Of a stretch of 41,211 bases of DNA, positions 5,795 through 28,389 are shown piece after piece (the stretch's first letter is position 1; every line of letters begins with the position of its first letter). Source of the stretch: Anaerolineae bacterium (GTDB taxonomy: Bacteria; Chloroflexota; Anaerolineae; Promineifilales; Promineifilaceae); the NCBI GenBank assembly GCA_024762395.1, contig JANTHP010000002.1:1-41211 (forward strand), given 5' to 3'. The notes below the pieces were generated by a model. The model had not been told where the DNA came from. It did not search any database and worked only from the letters and a program-made list of their open reading frames with translations. Both the position numbers and the translations under genes were made by a program.

Positions 5795-5875
5795 AGATTC
5801 ATGATTAAACATGCGCCATTCACAATTCACAATTCACAATTCATCCTTCACAATTCCCCATTCCTCATTCTCCTC
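5774..5875. repeat. Heptanucleotide-period array spanning the stop of the GT39-like gene and the start of the LysM gene
   Basis: gaattgg aaattga ggattga agattca tgattaa ... attcaca attcaca attcaca attcatc cttcaca attcccc attcctc. Confidence 0.75.
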
Positions 5876-6691: not shown

Positions 6692-6724
6692 AGATTTGTC
6701 AAATTTTTCAAATTTGACAAATCT
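6692..6724. repeat. Perfect 15-bp inverted repeat (3-nt loop), part of a dispersed element starting at 6670
   Basis: agatttgtcaaattt-ttc-aaatttgacaaatct; the flanking gtaactattcaga...ccccttagatttgtcaaat matches the element at 25030-25132. Confidence 0.85.
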
Positions 6725-6745: not shown

Positions 6746-8032
6746 ATGAATCGAAATCGCTTAATCCAACTTTTCCTATTACTTTTGCTAACGCTTGTCG
6801 CCGTGCAGGCCGCGCCCACCGCCGCCGCGCCGCCCCAGCAAACCAATCTGCTCACCAACCCCGGCTTTGAGGCCCCCTATGACAGCGACGGCTCCGCCAA
6901 CGGTTGGGTACGCTGGGACCGCGTCAGCAGCGCCGACAAATTTGACGACTGCACCAATCCGTACCACAAAAGCCCGAGCTGGGGCATGGCGACCGACTTT
7001 GTCCACAGCGGCAGCGCGTCGCAATTCGTTGGCAACAACTGGGACACCTGGGCCGCCGGCGTCTGGCAAACCGTCTCTGTTGTGCCCGGAACCACTTACG
7101 AATTCACGTTTTATGGGCGCGGTTACGGCTCCATGAACGCCAGCGATCCTTCCTACACAGGCTTGAACATGCAAATGCGCGCCGGAATAGACCCCAACGG
7201 CAGCGGCCTATGGAACGATGGCGATGTGGTGTGGAGCGCAATGGGTTCTCCGCATGACCGCTGGGATTTATTCTCGGTTCAGGCAACTGCCACCGGCGAT
7301 AAAATGACGGTTTTTGTGGCCGCCGATTGGGGCGTCGCCGGCGTCAATCAATGCTATAAGTTCCTCAATACCTATTTTGATGATGCGTCTTTGGTGGAAG
7401 TGGCCCCGCCGCCCACAAATACTCCTGTGCCACTGCCCACATCCCCGCCGCCGCCGCCCGCCACCAGCACACCGATCCCAACGGCAACGGCCGTACCCAC
7501 CGAAACGCCCATCCCCACCGAAACGCCCATTCCGCCCTCCCCCACGCCAACCGGAGCCGCCATCTGCCTCAACGCCTTCGCCGATGACAATGGTAACGGC
7601 ATCCATGATGCGGCGGAAGGGTACATGGCCGGCGTGACATTTACCATCGCCGGCAATGGGCAAGTGGTCAGTCAGGTCATCTCCCCCGGCAGCGCCGACC
7701 CGGTTTGCGTGGAAGGCATTCCGGCCGGCAGCTACCAAATCGCCCAAGTCGTGCCCGCTCGTCTGGAAATGACCACAGCCGCCAACACATCCCTGAATGT
7801 GGTCGAAGGCAAAGAATACGGCGTGGAGTTTGGCAGCCGCTTGCGCCCGGCTGATGGCGAAGCTGTGGCCGCCAACCCGGAACCTGCGGTAGAAACGGCC
7901 GTTCCTGCCCCGCCGCCAACCCCCGCAGAAGAAGGTGGAATGAGCGCGCTGGCAATCAGCGGCCTGGCTGTCATGGCGTTGGCTGTTATCCTGTTGGGCG
8001 CCCTTATCTTCCTGGTTCTTAAAAAGGGATGA
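6746..8032 (+). CDS. Secreted/anchored carbohydrate-binding-like protein with SdrD/Cna-B-like module and C-terminal TM
   Basis: Signal peptide; NLLTNPGFEAPYDSDGSANGWVRWD jelly-roll start; Pro/Thr linker; AICLNAFADDNGNGIHDAAEGYMAGVTFTIAG; TM ALAISGLAVMALAVILLGALIFLVLKKG. Confidence 0.75.
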   Translation: MNRNRLIQLFLLLLLTLVAVQAAPTAAAPPQQTNLLTNPGFEAPYDSDGSANGWVRWDRVSSADKFDDCTNPYHKSPSWGMATDFVHSGSASQFVGNNWDTWAAGVWQTVSVVPGTTYEFTFYGRGYGSMNASDPSYTGLNMQMRAGIDPNGSGLWNDGDVVWSAMGSPHDRWDLFSVQATATGDKMTVFVAADWGVAGVNQCYKFLNTYFDDASLVEVAPPPTNTPVPLPTSPPPPPATSTPIPTATAVPTETPIPTETPIPPSPTPTGAAICLNAFADDNGNGIHDAAEGYMAGVTFTIAGNGQVVSQVISPGSADPVCVEGIPAGSYQIAQVVPARLEMTTAANTSLNVVEGKEYGVEFGSRLRPADGEAVAANPEPAVETAVPAPPPTPAEEGGMSALAISGLAVMALAVILLGALIFLVLKKG

Positions 8033-8035
8033 TGA

Positions 8036-8118
8036 GTTATGAAGGATGAAGGATGAATGATGAAGGATGAATAAATACATCACGCATCACGCATCACGCA
8101 TCACGCATCATGTTTCAC
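8036..8118. repeat. Heptanucleotide-period array at the start of the PTPS-related-type gene
   Basis: ggatgaa ggatgaa tgatgaa ggatgaa ... gcatcac gcatcac gcatcac gcatcat. Confidence 0.8.
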
Positions 8119-11100
8119 GACACAAATTTTTAGCGGCTGCGTTGGCATTGGCCTTCGCAGCCGCTTTGCCGCTGCTGGTGGGGCCGGGCTTGCTGAACAC
8201 GCGGGGCGGCGGCGACAGTCCGTTTTTGTTACAGCGGCTGCAACAGTTGGAAACGGCCGTTCTCGAAGGCCACTTCCCCGTTCGCTGGATGCCGGATGCC
8301 AATTACGGCTACGGCTACCCCTTTTTCAACTACTACGCCCCGCTCTCAATTTACATAACGCTGATTTTTCGGCTCATCGGCTTTAGTTACGTCAGTTCCA
8401 TTCAACTGTCCCAGTTAGCCGGATTCCTCACTGCCGCCTGGGGCATGTTCCATCTGGCGCGGCGTTGGTTCAAAAACGAATGGGCGGGGTTACTTGCCGC
8501 CGCCGCCTACACTTTCGCCCCCTTCCACATGGTCAACGTCTACACGCGCGGCGACTCGCTGGCCGAATTTTGGGCGATGGCGTTTTATCCATTGGTCATT
8601 TTGGCGGCAGAAGGCGTGGCGAGTGGCGAGTGGCGAGTGACAAGTAGATGGCAACGAGTGGCGATGTTGGCGTTAGCGTATGCAGGTTTAATTCTCAGCC
8701 ACAACATCTCAGCCTTGATTTTCTCACCCTTTCTCCTCCTCTACATCCTTCTCCTCTGGGCGCGTCATTCACAATTCACAATCCACAATTCACGATTCAC
8801 AATCCACAATTCGTCATTCATCATTCATTATTCCGCCGCTCTCCTCCTCGCCTTCGCCCTCTCCGCCTGGTTCTTCGTCCCCGCCATTCTGGAAAAATCG
8901 CTGGCCCAGCTTGGCCCGGTCACAGAAGGCTATTTCCATTTTAGCAACCATTTTCGCAGCGGCGATTTGGTGCAGCGCTCATTTTTGTTCGATTACAACC
9001 CGGACGGCGGCGCGGCGTTTGCGATGGGATTGGTGCAGACAGTTACGGCCGTTCTCGGCCTCATCGCGCTTTATATAAATCGGAGGCGGGAAGCACGGAT
9101 AAACGCGGACAACACCCTTTCACCACTTCACCTCTTCATCCCCCTCTCCCTCCTCATCGCCACCTTCATGATCACACCGCCCTCCCAATGGTTGTGGGAA
9201 CATTTGCCGCTGCTGCCGTTCACCCAATTCCCCTGGAGGTTCCTGTCGGTGCAGGCGTTTGCGGCGGCGCTGGCGGCCGGCGGACTGGCTTTGCTGCCCT
9301 GGAGACGGGCAATTGCGCCGCTTGGCGTTGCCCTGCTTGCTGCCGCGGGGCTGGGCAGCTTGCAAACGGATTATCTTGTTTTAGGCGATGGCGATGTAAC
9401 GGCCGTTCACCTGGCCCAATACGAATGGTTTACCGGCAACATCGGCACAACCGTCAGCGCCGAATACTTGCCCCACACCGTCCGGCCTCGCCCCTACACC
9501 AGCCAATGGCTGGCAGCCGGCCAGCGCGACGCCGTCCGCGCCCTCTCCGGCGAGCTGCTCTCCGCCCGGCGGACGAATGAACGGATGACGCGGCAAATCT
9601 GGCAAGTGGAAACGGCCGTTCCCGCCACCCTCGTCTTCCCCACCATGCAGTGGCCCGGCTGGGTGGGCGAGATTGATGGGGAGCGGGTGGCGATACGGCC
9701 GTCGCCCGGTTCCGGCCTCATCACGCTGGATGTGCCGGCTGGCGCTCACGCCATCACCCTAAAGTTAACGCGCACGCCGGTTCGGTTGGCAGCAGAGTTA
9801 CTCTCTTTAATCGCGCTTGCGGTTACAATCTGGCTAATTATCAGAGATTGGAGATTGGAGACTGGAGATGGATGGCCCAAGCTCAAAAGTCGCCAATCTC
9901 TAGTCTCCAGTCTCCTTATCATCATACTCATCATCGGCCTGCGCCTATGGCCGGAACACGCCCTGCCCGCCGATGATTTAACCTGGGATTTTGCCCAAAT
10001 GGGCTACCTGCACCACGACGAAACGATTCGATTTAGCAACGGTGCGGTTTTGGCCGGTTACGCCATCAACAATGAAGAGATTATTGCCGGGGAAACGGCC
10101 GTCATCACCCTGAACTGGCAAGCAAGCGGTAACTTTGCGGCAGCGCTGGCTCTGACCACGCCCGCCAAGCCGCGCCATCCGCAAGCCGCACTGCTGACGG
10201 AACAAACGCAGCCGCTACAAATCGGAACGGCCGTCTACCGGCTCACCATCCCCGAAAATGCGCCGCCGGGGCTTTATGTGCCGCGATTAGTCGTGGAAAA
10301 TAGCAGCGCCCTCATGCCCTCCGGCAGAACGCGGGGAGATTTATATTTGCGGCCGATTCGGATTTTGGCGGCAGTCACCCATCACCAGGAAACAGACAAC
10401 GGACAGTTGGATGTTCGCGCCATACAGGCAAAGCCGCGTGATGGGGTGTTGGCTGTGCAGTTGACCTGGTGGACGGGGCGGCCCATCAGCCAAAATTACA
10501 ATGTGTCGCTGCGGCTGCTGGATGGAAATGGCGCGATTGCGGCTCAGTTTGACACGCAGCCGGGCTACGGCTTCCTGCCCAGCAGCGGCTGGCCAGTTGG
10601 CGCATGGGTCAATGATTGGCTGACGATTGAGCTGCCCGCGCCGGAAAACGCACCCTATGCGCTAACGGCCGCTTTGTACGATGTGGAAACGGGCGAAGTT
10701 GTCCTGACGCGGCGGCTGGGCGCGCTGGATGAAGCGTTGGCGTTTGTCGCGCAAGAGCCGATTTTCGCTTTACCCGATGGCATTACAAGGGAAACGGCCG
10801 TTTTCCAGGCCAATGCCGCGCCCCTCATCCAACTGGAAGGCTACACCCAACAAGCGAACAGCCTCACCCTCTACTGGCGCGCCCTGGCAAAAATGCCCAC
10901 TAACTATACCCGCTTCGTCCATCTGGTTGATCCTGCCAGCGGCAGCATTATCGCCCAGGCAGATGGCTACACGCAGGGAAACAGCTACCCCACCAGCCAA
11001 TGGCAGCCGGGCGAAATCATCGCCGACACGGTTCCCAACCTGCCGGCTGGCGATTATGCTGTTTTTGTTGGGTTTTATGAGAATTTAGGCGATGCGTGGC

Positions 11101-11174
11101 CCCGGCTGACGGCCGTTGACCCCAATGGCAATCCCATCCCGGATAACAGAAAACAATTAACAATCAACAGATAA
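8067..11174 (+). CDS. Large polytopic membrane protein, PTPS-related-domain type
   Basis: PVRWMPDANYGYGYPFFNYYAPLSIYITLIFRLIGFSYVSSIQLSQLAGFLTAAWGMFHLARRWF is typical of 6-pyruvoyl-tetrahydropterin-synthase-related membrane proteins; long extracytoplasmic C-terminal half. Confidence 0.65.
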   Translation: MNKYITHHASRITHHVSRHKFLAAALALAFAAALPLLVGPGLLNTRGGGDSPFLLQRLQQLETAVLEGHFPVRWMPDANYGYGYPFFNYYAPLSIYITLIFRLIGFSYVSSIQLSQLAGFLTAAWGMFHLARRWFKNEWAGLLAAAAYTFAPFHMVNVYTRGDSLAEFWAMAFYPLVILAAEGVASGEWRVTSRWQRVAMLALAYAGLILSHNISALIFSPFLLLYILLLWARHSQFTIHNSRFTIHNSSFIIHYSAALLLAFALSAWFFVPAILEKSLAQLGPVTEGYFHFSNHFRSGDLVQRSFLFDYNPDGGAAFAMGLVQTVTAVLGLIALYINRRREARINADNTLSPLHLFIPLSLLIATFMITPPSQWLWEHLPLLPFTQFPWRFLSVQAFAAALAAGGLALLPWRRAIAPLGVALLAAAGLGSLQTDYLVLGDGDVTAVHLAQYEWFTGNIGTTVSAEYLPHTVRPRPYTSQWLAAGQRDAVRALSGELLSARRTNERMTRQIWQVETAVPATLVFPTMQWPGWVGEIDGERVAIRPSPGSGLITLDVPAGAHAITLKLTRTPVRLAAELLSLIALAVTIWLIIRDWRLETGDGWPKLKSRQSLVSSLLIIILIIGLRLWPEHALPADDLTWDFAQMGYLHHDETIRFSNGAVLAGYAINNEEIIAGETAVITLNWQASGNFAAALALTTPAKPRHPQAALLTEQTQPLQIGTAVYRLTIPENAPPGLYVPRLVVENSSALMPSGRTRGDLYLRPIRILAAVTHHQETDNGQLDVRAIQAKPRDGVLAVQLTWWTGRPISQNYNVSLRLLDGNGAIAAQFDTQPGYGFLPSSGWPVGAWVNDWLTIELPAPENAPYALTAALYDVETGEVVLTRRLGALDEALAFVAQEPIFALPDGITRETAVFQANAAPLIQLEGYTQQANSLTLYWRALAKMPTNYTRFVHLVDPASGSIIAQADGYTQGNSYPTSQWQPGEIIADTVPNLPAGDYAVFVGFYENLGDAWPRLTAVDPNGNPIPDNRKQLTINR

Positions 11175-11276
11175 CAATCAACACCTTTCCGTTAACCGTT
11201 CACTGTTCACTGTTAACCGTTCACTGTTAACCGTTCACCGTTCACCGTTCACCGTTCACTGCCCACTGTTTTCACT
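11154..11276. repeat. Heptanucleotide-period degenerate tandem array
   Basis: aacaatt aacaatc aacagat aacaatc aacacct ttccgtt aaccgtt cactgtt cactgtt aaccgtt cactgtt aaccgtt caccgtt caccgtt caccgtt cactgcc cactgtt. Confidence 0.85.
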
Positions 11277-11752: not shown

Positions 11753-11900
11753 GAACGATTTGGCAAAGGGTGCATTTCAAATGAGTTGAGAAAAGTGCGT
11801 GTATCGGGAATTGGAATTCCCGAAACGTTGAGCCAAGTATCGGGAATTCCAATTCCCGATACATCAACTGAGATGAAACACACCCTTTGGCAAATCGTTC
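11753..11900. mobile_element. MITE-like non-coding element, about 148 bp, about 37-bp imperfect terminal inverted repeats and two internal hairpins
   Basis: Left end gaacgatttggcaaagggtgcatttcaaatgagttga; right-end reverse complement gaacgatttgccaaagggtgtgtttcatctcagttga (31/37 by eye); internal tcgggaattggaattcccga and tcgggaattccaattcccga; second copy at window start. Confidence 0.75.
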
Positions 11901-13371: not shown

Positions 13372-13423
13372 TAAATGTATCCTGGCTCTTTGGGAATTGA
13401 TGGGAGTAATCATGGCATCATGC

Positions 13424-13502
13424 GTAATGCGTAATGCGTAATGCGTAACCAGAGGCAGGCCCCGCATCACGCATTGCGCATCACGAATTACGGATTACGG
13501 TA
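13424..13502. repeat. Heptanucleotide-period array with inverted arms
   Basis: gcgtaat x3 ... gcatcacgcattgcgcatcacgaattacggattacgg. Confidence 0.8.
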
Positions 13503-13648
13503 AACCCCACAAAATCCAAAAGACCCTTTATCCTTTGGCCCCAACAGTATTACAACACCGCTTAGTGCATAGAGTAACGGGAACTTTCCACGCTGGGACG
13601 ACGTCTATAAAACACGATACCACAAAAAACAAGATTCGGAGGTGCGAA

Positions 13649-14625: not shown

Positions 14626-15168
14626 TTATCGCCCGCCAAATAACCCCAACGCAAAGCGCAAAAGAGCGCGGAACAACCATTTTCCTACCCCCAATCGCGG
14701 CGCAACAGTGAGACTTTCCTCCATCCGCATCATCGCGTTCACCCACTGACCCTGACGCAAACGCAGCAAACTCAACGCTCGTAAAACCTGGCTTTGCTTG
14801 TCCCGGTCGTTGTGTTGGGCAAACAGGGCGGCGGCCTGGCTGTAACTACGAGCGGCCTCGGCGCGTTGTTTTCGGGCGGCGTACAAATCGCCCAGGTTGG
14901 CTAAGGTTTGGGCTTGCCGGTTGGTGTCTCCCATTTTTTTGAAGATGGCGGCGGCTTGTTGGAGGGTGGTAACGGCCGTTTTCCACTCCCCCCTCACCCG
15001 ATAAATAACGCCCATGTTATTCAACATTTCAGCCCGGCCTGGTTCGTCATTTTGAGCGGCATAGAGGGAGACGGCCGTTTCAAACGCCGCCAACGCCCCA
15101 TCATAATCCCCCCGCTGGAACAAAACCAACCCCTTCTCCTTCAACGCTTCCGGGTTTTGCTCACTCAT
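14626..15168 (-). CDS. Tetratricopeptide repeat protein
   Basis: Repeated TPR text: ALAAFETAVSLYAAQNDEPGRAEMLNNMGVIYRVRGEW / AAAIFKKMGDTNRQAQTLANLGDLYAARKQ. Confidence 0.85.
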   Translation of the reverse strand: MSEQNPEALKEKGLVLFQRGDYDGALAAFETAVSLYAAQNDEPGRAEMLNNMGVIYRVRGEWKTAVTTLQQAAAIFKKMGDTNRQAQTLANLGDLYAARKQRAEAARSYSQAAALFAQHNDRDKQSQVLRALSLLRLRQGQWVNAMMRMEESLTVAPRLGVGKWLFRALLRFALGLFGGR

Positions 15169-16046: not shown

Positions 16047-16145
16047 GTAATTCCAATTCTGGAAATACATACTGGTAGGAGCGGGATGGTCGTTCGGCAA
16101 GACCCTCGAACAACCATCCCGCTCCTACGCCAGAATTGGAATTGC
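16047..16145. repeat. About 99-bp nested inverted-repeat (REP/hairpin-like) element
   Basis: Outer arms gtaattccaattctgg / ccagaattggaattgc; inner arms gtaggagcgggatggtcgttcg / cgaacaaccatcccgctcctac. Confidence 0.8.
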
Positions 16146-16306: not shown

Positions 16307-18478
16307 ATGAGTGGGAATGAAGCACGATTAAAAGCAGTATCGGCCGTCGTCAACTATAAACCGATTACAGAACCGCTGAACTTTGCCGAAACATCGGCCA
16401 GCGAGATATTCGCGGTAAACGTTTTCAACGGCAAGGCAATGAAGCAGCGATTGCCCAAATCAGTATACAAATCAGTCCAAAAAACCATCAAGCAAGGCAA
16501 GAAACTGGATACAACAACGGCCGATGCTGTTGCCTCCGCCATGAAAGATTGGGCCATCGAAAAAGGGGCTACCCATTACGCCCATGTTTTCTACCCACTT
16601 ACCGGCGCAACGGCCGAAAAACACGACAGCTTTCTCTCCCCGTCCGGTGATGGGGAAGCTATCGCCGAATTTAGCGGCGAGCAGCTCATTCAGGGCGAAC
16701 CGGATGGCTCCAGCTTTCCCACTGGCGGCATACGCCCCACCTTTGAAGCGCGTGGATACACTGCCTGGGATGTAACCAGCCCCGCCTACATCCTGGAAAA
16801 CCCCAACGGCACAACCCTGTGTATCCCCACTGCCTTCGTCTCCTGGACGGGCGAGGCGCTGGACAAGAAAACACCGGTGCTGCGCTCAATGAAAGCGTTA
16901 AATGAACAAGCGCAGCGCATTCTCAAACTATTTGGACATGACGATGGCGCTATTGTCACGTCAACGGCCGGCGCTGAACAAGAGTATTTTCTGATAGACC
17001 AGAACTTTTACCTGGCACGCCCTGATTTGCTCACAGCCGGGCGCACACTTTTTGGAACCAAACCGCCCAAAGGGCAAGAATTTGACGACCATTATTTCGG
17101 CGCCATCCCAGAGCGGGTGCTGGCTTGCATGTTGGAGACAGAACGGGAACTGTTCAAATTGGGCGTGCCGGTAAAGACTCGTCACAACGAAGTGGCCCCC
17201 AGCCAATACGAAATGGCTCCCGTGCATGAAAACGCCAACGTAGCCACAGACCATCAACAGATCATCATGTTGACACTGAAGCGCGTAGCCGCCAAGTACG
17301 GTCTGGCCTGTCTGACGCATGAAAAACCATTCCTCGGCGTAAATGGCTCCGGCAAGCATGTTAACTACTCATTTGGCAACGAAACATTGGGCAACCTGAT
17401 TGATCCGGGCGATACGCCGCATGAAAATTTGCGTTTCCTGGTGTTTACGGCCGCTGTGATTCGCGCGGTAGACAAATATGCGCCGCTTTTGCGCGCCGTC
17501 ATCGCTTCCGCCAGCAATGATCACCGGTTGGGCGCCAATGAAGCGCCGCCGGCCATCATCTCTATTTTCCTGGGCGAGCAGTTGACGGATGTGTTTGAAC
17601 AAATCAAAACAGGAAAAGCGACATCATCCAAGCAGCAGGGATACCTGGAAATTGGCGTAGATACGCTGCCGCCCTTGCACCGCCACTCCGGCGACCGTAA
17701 CCGTACCAGTCCATTTGCTTTTACAGGCAACAAGTTTGAATTCCGGGCTGTCGGGTCTAATCAATCCATCGCCTCGCCGCTGACGACGTTGAATACGATT
17801 ATTGCCGAATCGCTGGATTATATTGCGACGAAGCTGGAAGCCTCCGACAGCGATTTTGGCGATGCAGTGCAGACTTTGTTACGGGAGATTGTGACGGAAC
17901 ACGGCCGTATTATTTTCAATGGCGACGGCTACTCCGAAGCATGGCATAAAGAGGCTGAGTTTGAACGGGGACTGCCCAATCTACGCACATCAGCGCAAGC
18001 GCTGCCGGTTTTGAACAGCCCGGATAGCATAGCGCTGTTCGGCAAATACAACGTTCTGTCCGCACGGGAAGCCGCCAGCCGCGCCGAGGTCAAACTAGAG
18101 CAGTACGTAATGGCCATTCAGGTGGAAGCGCGTTTGACGCTTAAAATGGGCCGAACGATGATTTATCCGGCCGCCCTTCGCTACCAAAGCGAACTGGCCG
18201 GCGCGGCCGCCCATCTGAAAACGGCCGGAATAGAACCTGACACAACCGCATTGGACAAAGTCACAGCCAGCGCCAATGCGCTGCAAGAAAGCCTGGACAG
18301 ATTGGACGCGCTGCTCACCCATGAGGCCGACGACCTGGAAGCGGAAGCGTCGTACATGTGCGATACTGTTTTACCGGCGATGGCGACGGTCCGCACCCAT
18401 GCCGACGCGCTGGAAAAGATTGTCGCCGACGACTTGTGGCCGCTGCCGACGTACCAGGAAATGTTGTTCATTAAATAA
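16307..18478 (+). CDS. glnN: Glutamine synthetase, type III
   Basis: 723 aa; [96 protein letters not shown] family. Confidence 0.95.
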
Positions 18479-18479
18479 A

Positions 18480-18552
18480 CCGTGAAACGTAAGGCGTGAA
18501 ACGTGATTGACAACGTACTGTTGTTTCGCGTTTCACGTTTTACGTTTCGCTC
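18480..18552. repeat. CGTGAAA-type heptamer array with inverted arms
   Basis: cgtgaaacgtaaggcgtgaaacgtg ... cgcgtttcacgttttacgtttcg immediately after the glnN stop. Confidence 0.8.
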
Positions 18553-18582: not shown

Positions 18583-18646
18583 AGAGTTGACAAATTTCAC
18601 CAACGCCTCGTTTTACACGAGTACCACAGGAAAATTTGTCAACTCT
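18583..18646. repeat. Perfect 15-bp inverted repeat with nested small hairpin
   Basis: agagttgacaaattt (18583-18597) / aaatttgtcaactct (18632-18646); inner ctcg-ttttaca-cgag. Confidence 0.8.
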
Positions 18647-19969: not shown

Positions 19970-22900
19970 TTATCTTATAATTACCGGCAGGTAAATCGAA
20001 TAAGGAGGCCCTGTGTCTACGATGGTCATAACGGCTTGAGACGGCGTTCCTAATGTCGCACCACCGGTCGGGTTGCTCAATGCCAGGTTAACCGTTTCGT
20101 CGCCTTCCACCAAAATATCGTTGATGATGGTAATGGTAAAGGTTTTGCTGGTTTCGCCATCGGCAAAGTCAAGCGTCCCCGATACGGCCGTGTAATCTTC
20201 GCCCGCAACAGCTGTACCATCGCTGGTCGCATAATCCACACTGACGGCTCCAAAAGAACCGTTGACGCGCGTTACCGTAATTGTCGCGGTGATAACATCT
20301 TCCTGCACGGTCAATGCAGCCGATGCAAACTGGAGTTGACCGTATGCAGCCAGGTTATCAATGAAGCAAGTAGCAGAACCATCTGCAATAGTCGCCCCTT
20401 GTGCATTGCTCAGTAAAAGCTGGAATTCTTCCTGCGGTTCGGTCAATGTGTCGTCCAATATCTGAATGGCAATGTTTTGCTGCATCACACCGGGTGTAAA
20501 TGTCAGCGTGCCGCTGGCGGCGATGTAATCTTGTCCGGCAACGGCCGTGCCGTCAGACGTGGCATAATCTACAGTAACAGTTATGGCGCTGGGCGTTGAA
20601 AGCGTTACTGTAAACACGCCGGTACTTCCTTCAATAACAGTAATATCGCCAATAGAAAGGGCGGCCGTCTCGTTATCGTCAATCGTACCCACACCTTGCG
20701 CGTCGTTGAACGTGGCGTTAACAGCATTGCTTAATAAAAGCTGGAAGTTTTCCTGGGGTTCGGCTATGCCATCATCCACTGTCTGAATTGTAATGTTTTG
20801 CAGGGTCACGCCCGGCGTAAACGTGAGCGTGCCGCTGGCAGTAATGTAGTCTGATCCGGCAACGGCCGTACCGTCAGCGGTGGCGTAATCTACGGTAACA
20901 GTTAGTGCGCTGGGCACGGAAAGCGTCACTGTAAACACACCGCTGCCTCCTTCAATCATATCGGCGTCACTCACAGATAGGCCGGTAGAATCATTGTCGT
21001 TAATGGCTCCTACACCCTGTGCGTCATCAAGCGCAGCATTGACGGCGTTGCTCAACAGAAGTTGGAAATTCTCCTGAAGTTCAGGCAACACATCATCTAT
21101 TGTCTGAATGGCGACGACTTGCAGCGTTATGCCCGGCGTAAACGTTAATGTGCCGCTGGCGGCGATGTAGTCTGACCCGGCAACGGCCGTACCGTCAACC
21201 GTGGCGTAATCTACGGTAACAGTCAGTGCGCTGGGCGTTGAAAGCGTCACTGTAAAATCGCCAGTATCCCCTTCAAGAATGGTAATATCATCAACAGAGA
21301 GGGCGGCCGTGTCATCATCAGTGATGGTTCCCACACCCTGCGCGTCGTTGATCGCGGCATTGACGGCATTGCTCAACAGAAGTTGGAAATTCTCCTGCGG
21401 TTCGTCAATGACATCTTGCACGGTTTGAACAGCGATGGTTTGCTGGGTCACACCCGGCGTAAACGTTAATGTGCCGCTGGCGACGATGTAGTCTGACCCG
21501 GCAACGGCCGTGCCGTCAGCCGTGGCATAATCTACGGTAACGGTCATGGCGCTGGGTATTGAAAGTGTCACCGTAAACACATCGCTGCTTCCTTCGATCG
21601 CGTCCGCATCGCTAACCGAAAGGGCGGCGACATCGTTATCTATGATTGTCCCCACACCCTGCGCGTCATTGAGCGTGGCATTCACAGCGTTGCTCAATAA
21701 AAGCTGGAAATTCTCCTGCGGTTCGTCTACGGCATCCTGCACAGTTTGAACAGTAATGTTTTGCTGGGTCACACCCGGCGTAAACGTCAGCGTCCCGCTG
21801 GCGGCGATATAGTCTAATCCGGCTAAGGCCGTACCGTCAGCGGTGGCGTAATCTACCGTAACAGTCAATGCGCTGGGCGTTGAAAGCGTCACTGTAAACA
21901 TACTGCTGCTTCCCTCAACCGCAGCCGCATCGCTAACCGAGAGGGTGGCAGCATCGTTATCGTTGATAATCCCTACGCCCAGCGCGTCATCAAGCGCGGC
22001 ATTAACAGCATTGCTCAACAAGAGTTGGAAATTCTCCTGCGGTTCGGCGATGACATCTTCCACTGTTTGAACGGTAATGTTTTGCTGCATTATGCCCGGC
22101 GCAAACGTTACCGTGCCGCTGGCAGCGGTATAATCCAGTCCGGCAACGGCCGTACCGTCAGCGGTGGCGTAATCTACCGTAACCGTCATGGCGCTGGGCA
22201 CAGAAAGCGTCACCGTAAACACGCCGCTGCTCCCTTCAATCGCGGCGGCATCGCTAACTGAGAGGGCGGCGGTGTCGTTATCCACAATGTCGCCTACCGC
22301 CTGGCCGTCTGCGATATCCGCGCCTTGTACATTGCTTAAATTGACAAAAAAGTCTTCATCGGATTCATCCACCACATCGCCAAGAACAGGAACATTAACC
22401 GTTCTCTGGCTCTCGCCAGGGGCAAAGGTGAACGCGCCGCTAACGGCCGTGTAATCGCTGCCTGCTATGGCGGTGCCGTTAACGGTCGTGTAGGTAACGG
22501 TTACAGGATGTGTCACTGTGGGGGAGAGGGTAACGACAAAAGCGGCTGTCACTGACCCGCTATCTCCTTCTGTAACGGCCGTGTCGGCAATACTAACTTG
22601 TACGCTAAGTTCATAAGCGCCAATATCGCAAGTTGCAGTACCGTCTCCATCGCCGTCTAGGGGGCGCGTTACGCCGCGCTGATCGCTGCCGGCACAAGTA
22701 GCATTATTGCCGGCGTCAATCGCAGGACTGCCGGCCCCCAAAGCGTGAGTCTGGGTTAGCCCGCCATTATCGGCCAGCGGGGCCAGCAAAGGGTCGGCCT
22801 GCACGGCAAAACCGCCGCATGTCACGCCTGGGAATTCTAAATTGTTGCCGTTATCTGTAATAGTTCCCTGGCAGTTGGCCGCGCCATTGCCGGATACAAT

Positions 22901-23935
22901 CGTGTTTTCAAGTGTGATGGTACCGCTGCTGTTGTAAATGCCCTCGCCAGCGCCGGCCGTATTATTTGTGATGGTGCTGTTGGAAACGGCCGTTGTCCCA
23001 CCAGCCGTATAAATACCGCCGCCATTACCCGTTGTACCATTGCCGCTAATAGTTGAGTTCGTAATGCTCAACGTCCCCCCATTGGAAAGGCCGCCGCCAT
23101 CGCCAGCGCTAAGATTGCCAGAAAAAACGCTGTTTTCTATTACGACAAAGCCGGAATTAACATGAAGAGCGCCGCCTCGGCTGCTAACGCTGTTATCAGA
23201 AAAAGTCGTATTTGTAATGGTGGTTAATGCGACCGTCGCTCTAACCAAACCACCGCCCCAACTGCTCTGATTGCCTGAAATCGTGCAGTTAGTCAGCGTT
23301 GATGTTCCTACAGTTTCCAAACCGCCGCCACGATGTCCGGCTAAATTATTCAACAAATCAACATTCGTCAAATTCAAAGCGCCGCTGCTTTCATGATAAA
23401 TACCACCACCAAAGTTGCCGCTCCCAAATCCATCGCCTATCGTGCCAATTTGTCCGTTTTGAATGGTTAGATCATTCATGGTCACATCAATTGAACCATG
23501 CGTGTGTATCACACGGTCTGTGACCACGGCCCCGTTACCATCAATAATCGTTACCCCGGCGCCGGCGCCATTAATGATAATGGCATCAGTGATATCCAAA
23601 TCGCCCGTTGCATTACCATCTTCGCCAATGCCGGTAAGCGCTAACGTATACGTACCGGCAGGCAGGGTAATGGTGTCAACGCCAGGATCGCCCACAGCGC
23701 AATCCCCGCCGGTGGTATCCCCGGTGGCAGAATTCGCATTCATAATGGCTTCGCGTAAGGTACAATTCCCATCCCCCGCGATCAAATTATCGCTGAAGCT
23801 GTTGACTGTAATGGTTGCCGCATAGGTTACAAATGCCGGCTGCAAGCTAAAAAACAATACTATCAACAAAATGATTGTGGCGAACTTTGATAAATGACTC
23901 CCTATGCTGTGAAAAGAAACGTTATTTTTTTTCAT
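19970..23935 (-). CDS. Secreted CSLREA-type / right-handed beta-helix protein with about 8 Calx-beta domains
   Basis: Signal peptide; [29 protein letters not shown] (CSLREA-like); beta-helix text ([24 protein letters not shown]); repeated [40 protein letters not shown] (Calx-beta). Confidence 0.9.
20350..22290 (-). repeat. Intragenic tandem repeat, 321-bp (107-aa) unit, about 6 copies
   Basis: Equivalent positions of the GTAVAG codons at 20541, 20862, 21183, 21504, (21825, degenerate) and 22146, spaced by exactly 321 bp or a multiple. Confidence 0.85.
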
Positions 23936-24038
23936 GTCACTTCCCCTGTATATGTATTCTTGAAATGCGCCAACTCAACCGTCAGTTTTTAGCGTATCCA
24001 AGCACAATTTACAATACGTTAATCATAGGTAACCGCGC

Positions 24039-24103
24039 AGGTGACAGTCACTTTTCCCAGAGGCGCTGGTCACAACTTGCTGCATTTTAAGTGACTGTCA
24101 CCT
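24039..24103. repeat. Perfect 15-bp inverted repeat element upstream of the Calx-beta gene
   Basis: aggtgacagtcactt (24039-24053) / aagtgactgtcacct (24089-24103). Confidence 0.8.
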
Positions 24104-24201
24104 CTGAGGCTAAGTAGTTACAATCATAGTTTGCTACTAGATCATTACACAATACCTTTCGATGTAAAATAACTGAGTCTTTCGGATTTCACGGGGTTTA
24201 T

Positions 24202-24257
24202 CGTGAAACGTGAAACGTGAGTTTTTTCTGGTCGCGCATCACGTTTCACGTTTCACG
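24202..24257. repeat. Perfect 19-bp inverted repeat built from CGTGAAA heptamers
   Basis: cgtgaaacgtgaaacgtga ... tcacgtttcacgtttcacg. Confidence 0.85.
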
Positions 24258-24477
24258 CCGCGATTACCCCCGAGTTCCCAAAGAACCTTCAGGATTTTGC
24301 CCACTCCTGTCTTTTGAGATAGAACAGTATCCAAACAAACAGCATGAAGGATATTGAATGCCTCTACTTCAAGAACAATTGGCGCTTTTTACGGAGGATG
24401 GCAACGGGCGAGGATATTTTACAATCCAAACCCGCATTCCTGCCTGATGAAAAAGTTTTTTAGGAGTGATTGTTTGA

Positions 24478-25029
24478 ATGCAGGTTTTGATTGCTGACGA
24501 TGAATCTATTATTCGAATGGGGTTGAAGGCAATGCTGCGGGAGATGGGGCATGAGGTGATAACGGCCGTAAACGGCCGTGAAGCCCTCCGCATGGCCCGG
24601 CAACACCAACCCGACCTTGCCATCCTGGACATCAAAATGCCCTACACCGACGGCCTGCAAGCCGCCAAAACCATCAGCCGCACCCGCCCCATCCCCATCC
24701 TGCTCCTCACCGCCTTCAGCGAAGACGATCTCATCGAAAAAGCAACCGATTTACCCATTCACGGCTACCTGATCAAGCCCATCAAGCCCGAAGAACTCAG
24801 CGCCGCCATCGCCGTCGCCCGCAAACGCTTCGCCGAAAGCCAACAATTAGCCGCCCGAACCACCAAACTGGAAACCACGCTGGAAGAGCGCAAACTCATC
24901 GAGCGCGCCAAAGGCAAACTAATGGAAACCGGCCTGACCGAAGCCGCAGCCTACCGCGCCCTGCAAACTTACGCCCGCCAAAACCAGCAAACCATCGCCC
25001 AAGTCGCTCGCGCTTTGTTGAAAAAATAA
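24478..25029 (+). CDS. Response regulator with receiver and C-terminal ANTAR RNA-binding domain
   Basis: MQVLIADDESIIRMGLKAMLREMGHEVITAVNGREALRMARQHQPDLAILDIKMPYTDGL...; LEERKLIERAKGKLMETGLTEAAAYRALQTYARQNQQTIAQVARALL (ANTAR). Confidence 0.9.
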   Translation: MQVLIADDESIIRMGLKAMLREMGHEVITAVNGREALRMARQHQPDLAILDIKMPYTDGLQAAKTISRTRPIPILLLTAFSEDDLIEKATDLPIHGYLIKPIKPEELSAAIAVARKRFAESQQLAARTTKLETTLEERKLIERAKGKLMETGLTEAAAYRALQTYARQNQQTIAQVARALLKK

Positions 25030-25132
25030 GTAACTATACAGCGCTACCGAGAAGATTTGTCAAATTTTTTAGCATGACCAAGCGTTTACCAGGCAAAATT
25101 TGATAAATCTAAGGGTACATCTGAATAGTTAC
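25030..25132. mobile_element. MITE-like element, about 103 bp with terminal inverted repeats
   Basis: Left gtaactatacagcgctaccgagaagatttgtcaaattttt; right-end reverse complement gtaactattcagatgtacccttagatttatcaaattttgcc; related copy at 6670-6724. Confidence 0.75.
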
Positions 25133-25238: not shown

Positions 25239-27722
25239 CTATACAACTGCGGATGATTCCTCAATGGGCGCAGCCGCTTCCTCCACGGGCAAACCTTCCA
25301 CTCGCTCGAAGGTTAACTCATCGTCAGCCACATCAATATGAATGCGGTCGCCAGATTCAAACTCGCCCTTAAGCAGTTTCACCGAAAGCGGGCTTTCCAC
25401 AAACCGCTGCAAAGCGCGTTTCAACGGCCGCGCACCAAAATCTTTGTCGTACCCCTGCCCTGCCAGCCATCTTTGCGCCGCTTCAGTCAGCTCAATCGTC
25501 AAACCGCCATGCTCGGCCAGCCGTTCCTGAACCTCTTTCATCTGCATGTTGACGATTTCAACCACATCCTCCTCGCTCAACGGCTCGAAAATGATTACCT
25601 CGTCAATCCGGTTGATAAATTCGGGGCGGAAGGTCTTCTTAAGGTCGTCCTCGATTCGTTTATGATCTGCTTTCTCGGCGGCGTCGCGGGCGCCGGCAAA
25701 ACCGAGAGCGCCGGCTTTACGCGCGAAGGATGTGCCAACGTTGCTGGTCATGACAATGACGGTGTTACGGAAATTGACAACACGGCCCTGCCCATCGGTA
25801 AGACGGCCGTCATCCAGCAATTGCAGCAGCGCATTCCACACATCCGGGTGGGCCTTCTCAACCTCATCAAAGAGAACGACAGAATACGGCCGTCGCCTGA
25901 CCTGTTCCGTTAATTGGCCGCCCTGATCATACCCCACATAGCCGGGAGGCGCGCCAAACAGACGGCTGACCGTATGTTGTTCCCGATACTCACTCATATC
26001 TATCCGAATCAGCGCATCCTCATCGTCAAACAAAAACTCAGCCAGCGCCTTCGCCAGCTCCGTCTTGCCCACGCCGGAACTACCCAGGAAGATAAACGAA
26101 CCAATCGGCCGTCGCGGGTCACTCAAGCCGGAGCGGCTGCGCCGAATCGCATCCGACAGCGCCTCAATCGCCCGATTCTGGCCCACAATACGCTCATGCA
26201 GCCGTTCCTCCATGTGCAGCAGCTTCTCCGCCTCCGTTTCCATCATCTGCGTCAGCGGAATCCCCGTCCAGGCCGAGACGACCTCGGCAATATCCTCCTC
26301 ATCCACAATCTCATCCAGCATATTTTCCGCTTGCCACGCCTCGCGCGCTTCCGAAAATTCACTCTCCAACCGCAGCCGTTCGGCTCGCTTCGTCGCCGCC
26401 CGTTCATAATCGCGCACCGTATGCGCCTCTTCCTCTTCCAAAATATGCTGGTCAAGTTCTTGCTTTAGCTGTTTCAATTCCGGCGGCAGCGTGTGCAAAG
26501 CGACGCGCAATTTGGCCGCCGCCTCGTCAATCAAATCAATCGCCTTATCCGGCAACTGCCGATCCGTCACATACCGGTACGATAATTTAGCCGCCGCCGC
26601 CAACGCCTCATCCGAGTACGTGACTTTGTGATGCGCCTCGTACCGGTCACGTAAGCCATGCAGCATCTCAATCGTCGCTTCCACATCCGGCTCATCCACA
26701 AAAACGGGGGCAAAACGGCGTTCCAACGCGCTGTCTTTTTCAATGTATTGACGATACTCATCCATCGTCGTCGCCCCTACGCATTGCAATTCGCCCCGCG
26801 CCAATGCCGGTTTGAGCATGTTGCTGGCATCCATCGCCCCCTGCGCCGAACCGGCGCCGACAACGGTGTGCAGTTCATCAATGAAAAGAATAATTTCACC
26901 CTGCGCTTGCTGAATTTCATTAACGGCCGCTTTCAGCCGTTCTTCAAACTCACCCCGGAACCGGCTGCCGGCAATCATAGCCCCCAGATCAAGCGAAACA
27001 ACCTTCTTGTTAAGCAAGTTTTCGGGCACATCGCTGGCGATGATTTTCTGGGCCAATCCTTCGACGATGGCCGTCTTACCCACGCCCGCCTCGCCGATCA
27101 GCACCGGATTGTTCTTGGTACGGCGGCTGAGCACCTGGATAACGCGCAAAATCTCATCGTCGCGGCCAATGACCGGGTCAAGTTTGCCTTCGCGCCCCAG
27201 CCTGGTCAGGTCGCGGCTGTATTTTTCTAATGTGCGGTAGCGCGTTTCAGCCTGCCTGTCGGTAACCCGCTTGCCGCCGCGTAAATCTTTGATGCCGTTA
27301 ACAATCCGGTCGCGGGTGACGCCGAATTCTTGCAAAATGCGGGCGGCGGGTGTGTTGCGCTCGCTCAAGATGGCTAAAAAGATGTGTTCGGTGGAGATAA
27401 ATTCATCTTTGAGGCGGTTGGCTTCGCCCTGGGCCAGTTCCAAAACGGTGCGGATGCGGGGCGTGTAGAAGATTTGGCCCACGCCGCCGCCGTAGACGGC
27501 TACTTTGGGGCTGGCCCGCAGTTCATCATCAAGCCGCTTCTGCATGGCGGCTACGTCTACATTCAGGTCTTGTAAAAGTTGGGGAACAGCGCCGTCGTTT
27601 TGCTCTAGCAGCGCCAAAAAGAGGTGTTCGGTATCTACCTGGGTGTGTTTGTATCGTTGAACGATTTCGTAAGCGCGGGCGGCTGCATCTTGCGCCCGTT
27701 CGGTAAAGCGGTCAAATCGCAT
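25239..27722 (-). CDS. clpC: ClpC/ClpB-family AAA+ ATPase (short M domain, ClpC-like); likely start [11 protein letters not shown]
   Basis: [143 protein letters not shown]. Confidence 0.85.
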
Positions 27723-27732
27723 ATTTGTTGTC

Positions 27733-27806
27733 CTTTCGTGAAACGTGAAACGTGAAACGTAATGCGTAAAACGTGATGCGTGATTCACGTATCACACATC
27801 ACGTCT
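27733..27806. repeat. CGTGAAA-type heptamer array in the clpC 5' region
   Basis: cgtgaaacgtgaaacgtgaaacgtaatgcgtaaaacgtgatgcgtgattcacgtatcacacatcacg. Confidence 0.8.
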
Positions 27807-28263: not shown

Positions 28264-28389
28264 GATGGGAATTATACTGGATGAAACGTGAAGCGTGAAA
28301 CATGAAAGCCTGTTTTCGCGTTTCACAAAGGAAACATCACGGGCAATTGCCCGCCACGAAGGATGAAGGCCGCAGCCCGATTGGCGGGC

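Follow-up and report, generated by a model that had tools for sequence, protein, structure and literature searches.

Head-to-head heptamer arrays of locus-specific sequence form intercistronic hairpins in an Anaerolineae genome

Paired arrays of 7-bp units recur throughout the genome of this Anaerolineae bacterium. Each site consists of two arrays of one unit family, the G-rich arm first and the C-rich arm second; the arms share a family, placement is intergenic, polarity is strict, and the two arms change jointly between relatives. We lean, by a small measure, towards regarding these sites as heptamer intercistronic hairpins of the STRR (short tandemly repeated repetitive sequence) type, shaped by slippage, by template switching from arm to arm and by overwriting with dispersed copies. 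Slippage in steps of 7 nt would lengthen and shorten the arrays. Complementarity between the arms would let a replicating strand switch template from one to the other, in any unit register, which would transfer new unit variants, equalise arm lengths and sometimes invert the centre. Dispersed copies of a different hairpin would take over certain sites. Position would persist through sequence turnover if a hairpin is tolerated or mildly favoured in these gaps, where it might act as a structure at mRNA 3' ends or between cistrons. Template switching is a published route for creating and maintaining hairpins (PMC8794818).

Complementary arms in the window and across genomes

The window analysed here is contig 2 (41,211 nucleotides) of a 4.9-Mb genome in 500 contigs. 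The locus at 24202-24257 consists, as first described, of CGTGAAA units in an inverted repeat that is exact over 19 bp: a G-rich 5' arm (CGTGAAACGTGAAACGTGA, CGTGAAA × 2.7; 24202-24220, plus strand), an 18-nt spacer (24221-24238) and a C-rich 3' arm that is the full complement of the first (24239-24257, plus strand). The folded strand was more stable than dinucleotide shuffles (z = -5.05). The adjacent response-regulator protein has its closest named relatives in Chloroflexota metagenome-assembled genomes, Ardenticatenaceae and other Anaerolineae. Folding likewise bore out the four other hairpins named in the preliminary description, strongly at two of them: a CGTGAAA hairpin at 18480-18552 (plus strand; arms 23 nt, 87% complementary, z = -8.6), which begins 1 nt past the stop of the gene at 16307-18478, encoding a type III glutamine synthetase, and a GGAGATT hairpin at 9843-9922 (plus strand, z = -6.5) within the open frame 8067-11174. 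The GCGTAAT hairpin at 13424-13502 was also supported (z = -3.9). The short CGTGAAA hairpin at 28280-28328 (annotated at 28282-28328, plus strand) was the weakest (z = -2.35); the orthologous gap in G026, a relative of another genus, holds a CGGTAAT hairpin. Beyond these five, we found a sixth window hairpin of CGTGAAA/CGTGATG units at 27737-27800 (plus strand, z = -3.5), upstream of a ClpC-like gene (25239-27788, minus strand). Window arrays at 5818-5863, 8616-8639, 8767-8833 and 11189-11259 have no complementary arm; the last, a CCGTTCA array (plus strand), has an AATCATC hairpin in its orthologous gap in G001, a genome of the same genus. Rfam models gave no match to the window at gathering score. 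A CRISPR array was ruled out, as the repeat units directly abut without unique spacers.

Genome-wide counts rest on a 1.2-Mb sample of this genome, in which 173 period-7 arrays were found versus none in shuffled sequence. The period spectrum has a sharp maximum at 7 and is otherwise strong only at 8 (78) and at the multiple 14 (121). Period-7 arrays occur at 142 per Mb in 58 unit families, with CGTGAAA, GGAGATT, GAATGAT and GCGTAAT as the main units, none of which contains GGG. A complementary arm (score of at least 11, within 150 bp of the array) was present at 100 of 208 period-7 arrays in the same 1.2 Mb, compared with 10 of 208 (~5%) when the flanks were taken from another locus, 17 of 208 for a same-direction copy and 0 of 208 in random sequence. 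The claim that many arrays are followed by their reverse complement thus withstood a systematic scan, in which complementarity clearly exceeded chance. It also held that arm sequence varies from locus to locus while the two arms agree, the family match being far greater within a locus than between loci. Octamer arrays are likewise paired, with arms up to 67 nt. Chance pairing is rejected by the period spectrum, the flank-swap controls and these octamer data. The longest arms found, 55-67 nt, belong to octamer hairpins of TAGTCNNN units (L001:6122-6244, L004:2298-2442, L054:7313-7479).

Paired arrays were also observed in the two relatives of the same genus (20 of 38 in G001, 13 of 33 in G002), in G026 (34 of 43) and in Nostoc plasmids, where 400 kb contained 21 arrays, 9 of them with a complementary arm (vs 2.6% in shuffled sequence). 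Hairpin density is ~85 per Mb, from which ~416 hairpins, about 400, are estimated for this genome. The genomes are metagenome assemblies in which short repeats might be collapsed, but the identical design recurs at orthologous positions and in complete Nostoc plasmids.

Polarity and placement relative to genes

Of 161 scored arrays, 155 have the G-rich arm 5' and the C-rich arm 3', a polarity seen across all gene contexts; convergent, divergent and intragenic sites show no exception (17:0, 12:0 and 12:0, respectively). The same order was seen for complementary arms (78 G-C vs 5 C-G) and for neighbouring arrays of unlike units (22 vs 4), although some of the latter pairs are weakly related units. 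One window example of the unlike kind, on the plus strand, sets ATGAAGG (8039-8071) head-to-head with CATCACG (8078-8110); polarity is kept and the arrays (8039-8110) are non-complementary. Lone arrays are evenly divided with respect to the transcription strand overall (27:27), but a bias is clear once their position at gene borders is considered: near stops the coding strand carries G in 41 cases vs C in 18, and near starts C in 35 vs G in 13. NTG start codons number 28 in the 3' arm vs 257 in the 5' arm. A constraint from translation offers one reason for this border placement of G and C arms; how it would apply to convergent gaps, or to the seven hairpins deep within predicted genes, is not obvious. 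Quadruplex formation was rejected as the cause of polarity, since G-tracts are absent from most units.

Template switching alone does not explain the 5' G-rich bias (155/161) or the order of unlike arrays (22:4). Both the complementary and the unlike pairs, and the lack of exceptions in convergent, divergent and intragenic settings, would follow if, at a break, each 3' end were extended with G-rich repeats before joining, leaving a G-array followed by a C-array, a layout resembling head-to-head telomere fusions. We hold this route to be very improbable: no candidate enzyme was found, a single genome carries many unit families, and lone arrays obey the gene-border rule too, which translation constraints could explain. 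A broader reading, to which we give little credence, is that a sequence-indifferent but polarity-strict process of hairpin writing repeatedly rebuilds both arms with a new heptamer word at fixed operon junctions, so that positions would be inherited and sequence would not. The G-rich strand would again be directed toward the centre, the arrangement of head-to-head telomere fusions.

Gene placement was assigned with a simple, crude gene caller. By this measure, 69 of 100 placed hairpins lie in co-directional gaps, 12 in convergent gaps, 9 in divergent gaps and 10 within predicted genes. Hairpins in co-directional gaps are found at a median of 11 nt past the upstream stop and 38 nt ahead of the next start. 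They occupy the atpA-atpG, atpG-atpD and atpD-atpC gaps and the gap immediately upstream of atpA (gene identities confirmed), and cell-wall gene gaps adjoining murG and ftsA. These positions, together with the scarcity of NTG codons in the 3' arm, might be taken as a hint for functional RNA hairpins, that is, for selection on an intercistronic stem (attenuator, terminator or 3'-exonuclease barrier) with compensatory RNA substitutions. An ordinary GC-rich terminator-like hairpin, which follows the glutamine synthetase gene in two other relatives, points the same way. However, TTTT was present at the 3' base of only 13 of 107 stems and the downstream T fraction was only 0.25-0.36, and the class as a whole is therefore rejected as intrinsic terminators for want of a U-tract. 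In the transcript sense, G.U mismatches in heptamer hairpins (56) are not in excess over A.C (68), compared with 59 G.U vs 37 A.C in other hairpins of the same genomes, and compensatory upkeep of an RNA was rejected on this count. With neither a G.U excess nor a U-tract, the transcribed stem is not maintained base by base. Against an RNA role also stand the lack of any effect of unit order on pairing, the hairpins deep within seven predicted genes, and gaps that are hairpin-free in a relative (2 nt in G026 v 115 nt in the present genome, G000). We therefore regard RNA-level selection of this kind as rather unlikely as the main explanation; a loose benefit from any hairpin in the transcript may exist.

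The seven deep intragenic hairpins lie in predicted genes whose frames stay open (L016:2815-2864, L017:19484-19542, L032:5955-6000, L039:8460-8525, L045:5119-5181, L052:1847-1921 and window 9850-9915). They recall in-frame palindromic insertions.

Persistence of position and joint change of the arms

Hairpin presence was compared at 78 orthologous gaps no shorter than 30 bp: both genomes had one in 15 gaps, a single genome in 27 and neither in 36 (OR 3.0, p = 0.03). Scored by period-7 content, the same gaps gave 20 with arrays in both, 18 and 9 one-sided and 31 with neither (OR 3.8, p = 0.0095). This positional association, with an OR of 3-4, may partly reflect gap length; as gap length could contribute, it is only moderate evidence that the hairpin is tolerated or useful. 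In most gaps with two hairpins, the units differ at 2-3 of 7 positions even in the best rotation. The gap after the glutamine synthetase gene gives a drift series in three genomes (CGTGAAA, AAAACGT, AGTGAAA). Hairpins can also arise at a gapless junction: where two genes here overlap by 4 bp (L026, gene 5), the counterpart in G026 (L198) has a 108-bp gap that contains heptamer arrays.

The preliminary description had inferred that the arms are copied from each other. The part of this claim that stands is the coupling of the arms, in unit family and in their change between relatives; literal copying does not, since unit order is not mirrored. When the order of units was shuffled in one arm, the match to the other arm was 14.6 vs 14.2 for the real order. 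A locus's own arm matched marginally better than same-family arms at other loci (15.6 v 14.8, p = 0.02). Copying with mirrored unit order is thus unsupported by both tests, and the arms are not simple copies. An initial test that favoured literal copying was discounted, as its hairpins had been preselected for same-locus pairing. Absence of a conserved unit order is what register-free exchange would give.

Coupled change was followed at 16 orthologous sites in a pair of close species, G026 and G006 (~90% identity; flanks mostly 86-96% identical), and at several of these both arms had changed together. At L201:5286, an indel of one 7-nt unit is present in both arms, and at L201:18579 a change of GTG to GGG is matched by CAC to CCC in the opposite arm. 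At L201:14680 the centre is exactly inverted (AATTGGGTAATT to AATTACCCAATT), which is a signature of template switching. At L190:16651, AATCTCC has become AATCGCC by an identical change in every unit of the array. At L185:18587, substitutions are uncompensated. Elsewhere in this pair both arms were swapped to another unit family. With 16 orthologous sites, these coupled changes are case evidence and give no rate; they support a coupling of the arms that probably acts at the DNA level, with units reshuffled across registers.

The family swaps between these two species could be insertion plus loss instead of conversion, and several are better read as a dispersed hairpin taking the place of the resident one than as copying inside the locus. 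Two neighbouring G006 loci are CGGTAAT hairpins with a common loop whose G026 counterparts are GGAGATT hairpins, and CGGTAAT hairpins with a single loop sequence recur in both genomes. The window's hairpin at 24202-24257 is itself enclosed by an imperfect outer scaffold (CTTTCGGATTTCACGGGGTT ... CGCGATTACCCCCGAGTTCCCAAAGAACC; 24180-24295), recognised by comparison with other scaffold copies. Eleven further copies lie outside this locus, and three heptamer families are carried within them. The second copy in the window (13385-13526) has GCGTAAT arms at 13420-13448 and 13463-13500 and a CCAGAG spacer; TTCTGG in the spacer at 24221-24238 resembles the CCAGAG/CTCTGG spacer motif of the scaffold copies. 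The shared loop at swapped sites and the one scaffold with three families in G000 indicate that replacement by dispersed copies also occurs.

Miniature mobile elements of the MITE or REPIN type, moved by a transposase in trans so that different families land in tolerant gaps, would account for this scaffold with its inverted ends and recurring CCAGAG spacer (present in 15 of 103 hairpins), for the recurrent CGGTAAT hairpins and for the copies >90% identical that certain hairpins have elsewhere. Terminal inverted repeats are common to a scaffold subset only. As an account of the whole class it appears quite improbable. Flanks are mostly unshared (any match elsewhere for 51 of 178). Insertion leaves the one-unit indels in two arms and the paired substitutions unexplained. 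The genome has one Y1 transposase match and one reverse transcriptase match, with no evident correlation with heptamer abundance across relatives, and these enzymes were rejected as the driver.

Relation to known repeats and other elements of the window

Two known systems come closest: the GGGAATC repeats of Xanthomonas, which are paired, and the P6b hairpin of Nostoc trnL. The Xanthomonas heptamers form mostly intergenic arrays with 70-75 convergent plus/minus pairs per genome and potential stem-loops; their G-rich strand is coding near stops and non-coding near starts, few lie in divergent gaps, and positions are kept across species as length and sequence vary (Rehm et al. 2015, PMC4692102). 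Nearby convergent plus/minus pairs and the same placement of lone arrays at stops and starts (41 v 18; 35 v 13) are found here. In contrast, Xanthomonas has one unit per genome with quadruplex-capable G-tracts, and here there are dozens of families, mostly without GGG, with orthologous sites that switch family. The P6b hairpin (2002) likewise has degenerate heptanucleotide repeats whose two arms pair into one hairpin, varies in length by whole repeats and can have its stem occupied by different repeat classes, but it is a single intron locus, compared with hundreds of loci between protein genes here. Cyanobacterial STRRs resemble the present arrays as dispersed intergenic tandem 7-bp arrays with several degenerate unit families per genome; in the open-access literature we found no description of head-to-head pairing as a general feature of them. 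REP, BIME and REPIN elements are extragenic, often intercistronic hairpins in hundreds of copies (PMC3116915). REPs have one conserved palindrome and a RAYT transposase; the arms here are locus-specific with period 7 or 8, no single palindromic core is common to the copies, and random arms pair in ~5% of cases. The genome's single Y1_Tnp match may be a RAYT or another Y1 transposase. TAACTGA arrays of Beggiatoaceae lie upstream of genes in >100 sets, with one inverted case reported (PMC4679880); they are direct repeats of one unit, unlike the paired inverted arms here.

How stem arms remain complementary despite sequence change has long been puzzling, and a few RNA genes have been the usual subject of study. 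This genome supplies ~400 replicates of such a hairpin from many unit families, and relatives 75-90% identical show joint arm change, which makes template-switch and compensatory-mutation models separable. The comparison also suggests that heptamer repeats of Chloroflexota, cyanobacteria and Xanthomonas have one architecture, head-to-head with the G-rich arm first. Hairpins within core operons such as that of ATP synthase could affect subunit expression.

Several other repeats were observed. An inverted element, AGGTGACAGTCACTT, lies directly left of the 24202-24257 hairpin (24030-24112), with ~30 similar stretches in the sampled genome. A palindrome, AACGGCCGTT, that resembles a highly iterated palindrome occurs at 832-919, 2532-2555, 7888-7909, 14971-15079 and 24561-24579, and has many intragenic and intergenic copies in the window and in relatives. 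Another, AGATTTGTCAAATTT, is repeated across several gaps (6692-6724, 18583-18646, 25053-25110). A dispersed palindromic element with a TATCGGGAATTGGAATTCCCGA core is present at 11753-11900 and also at 1-56 and 16049-16143; G002 has dozens of copies, many 93-99% identical. Finally, a 321-bp repeat occurs in tandem about six times (20403-22282) within a 1321-aa open frame (19970-23935).
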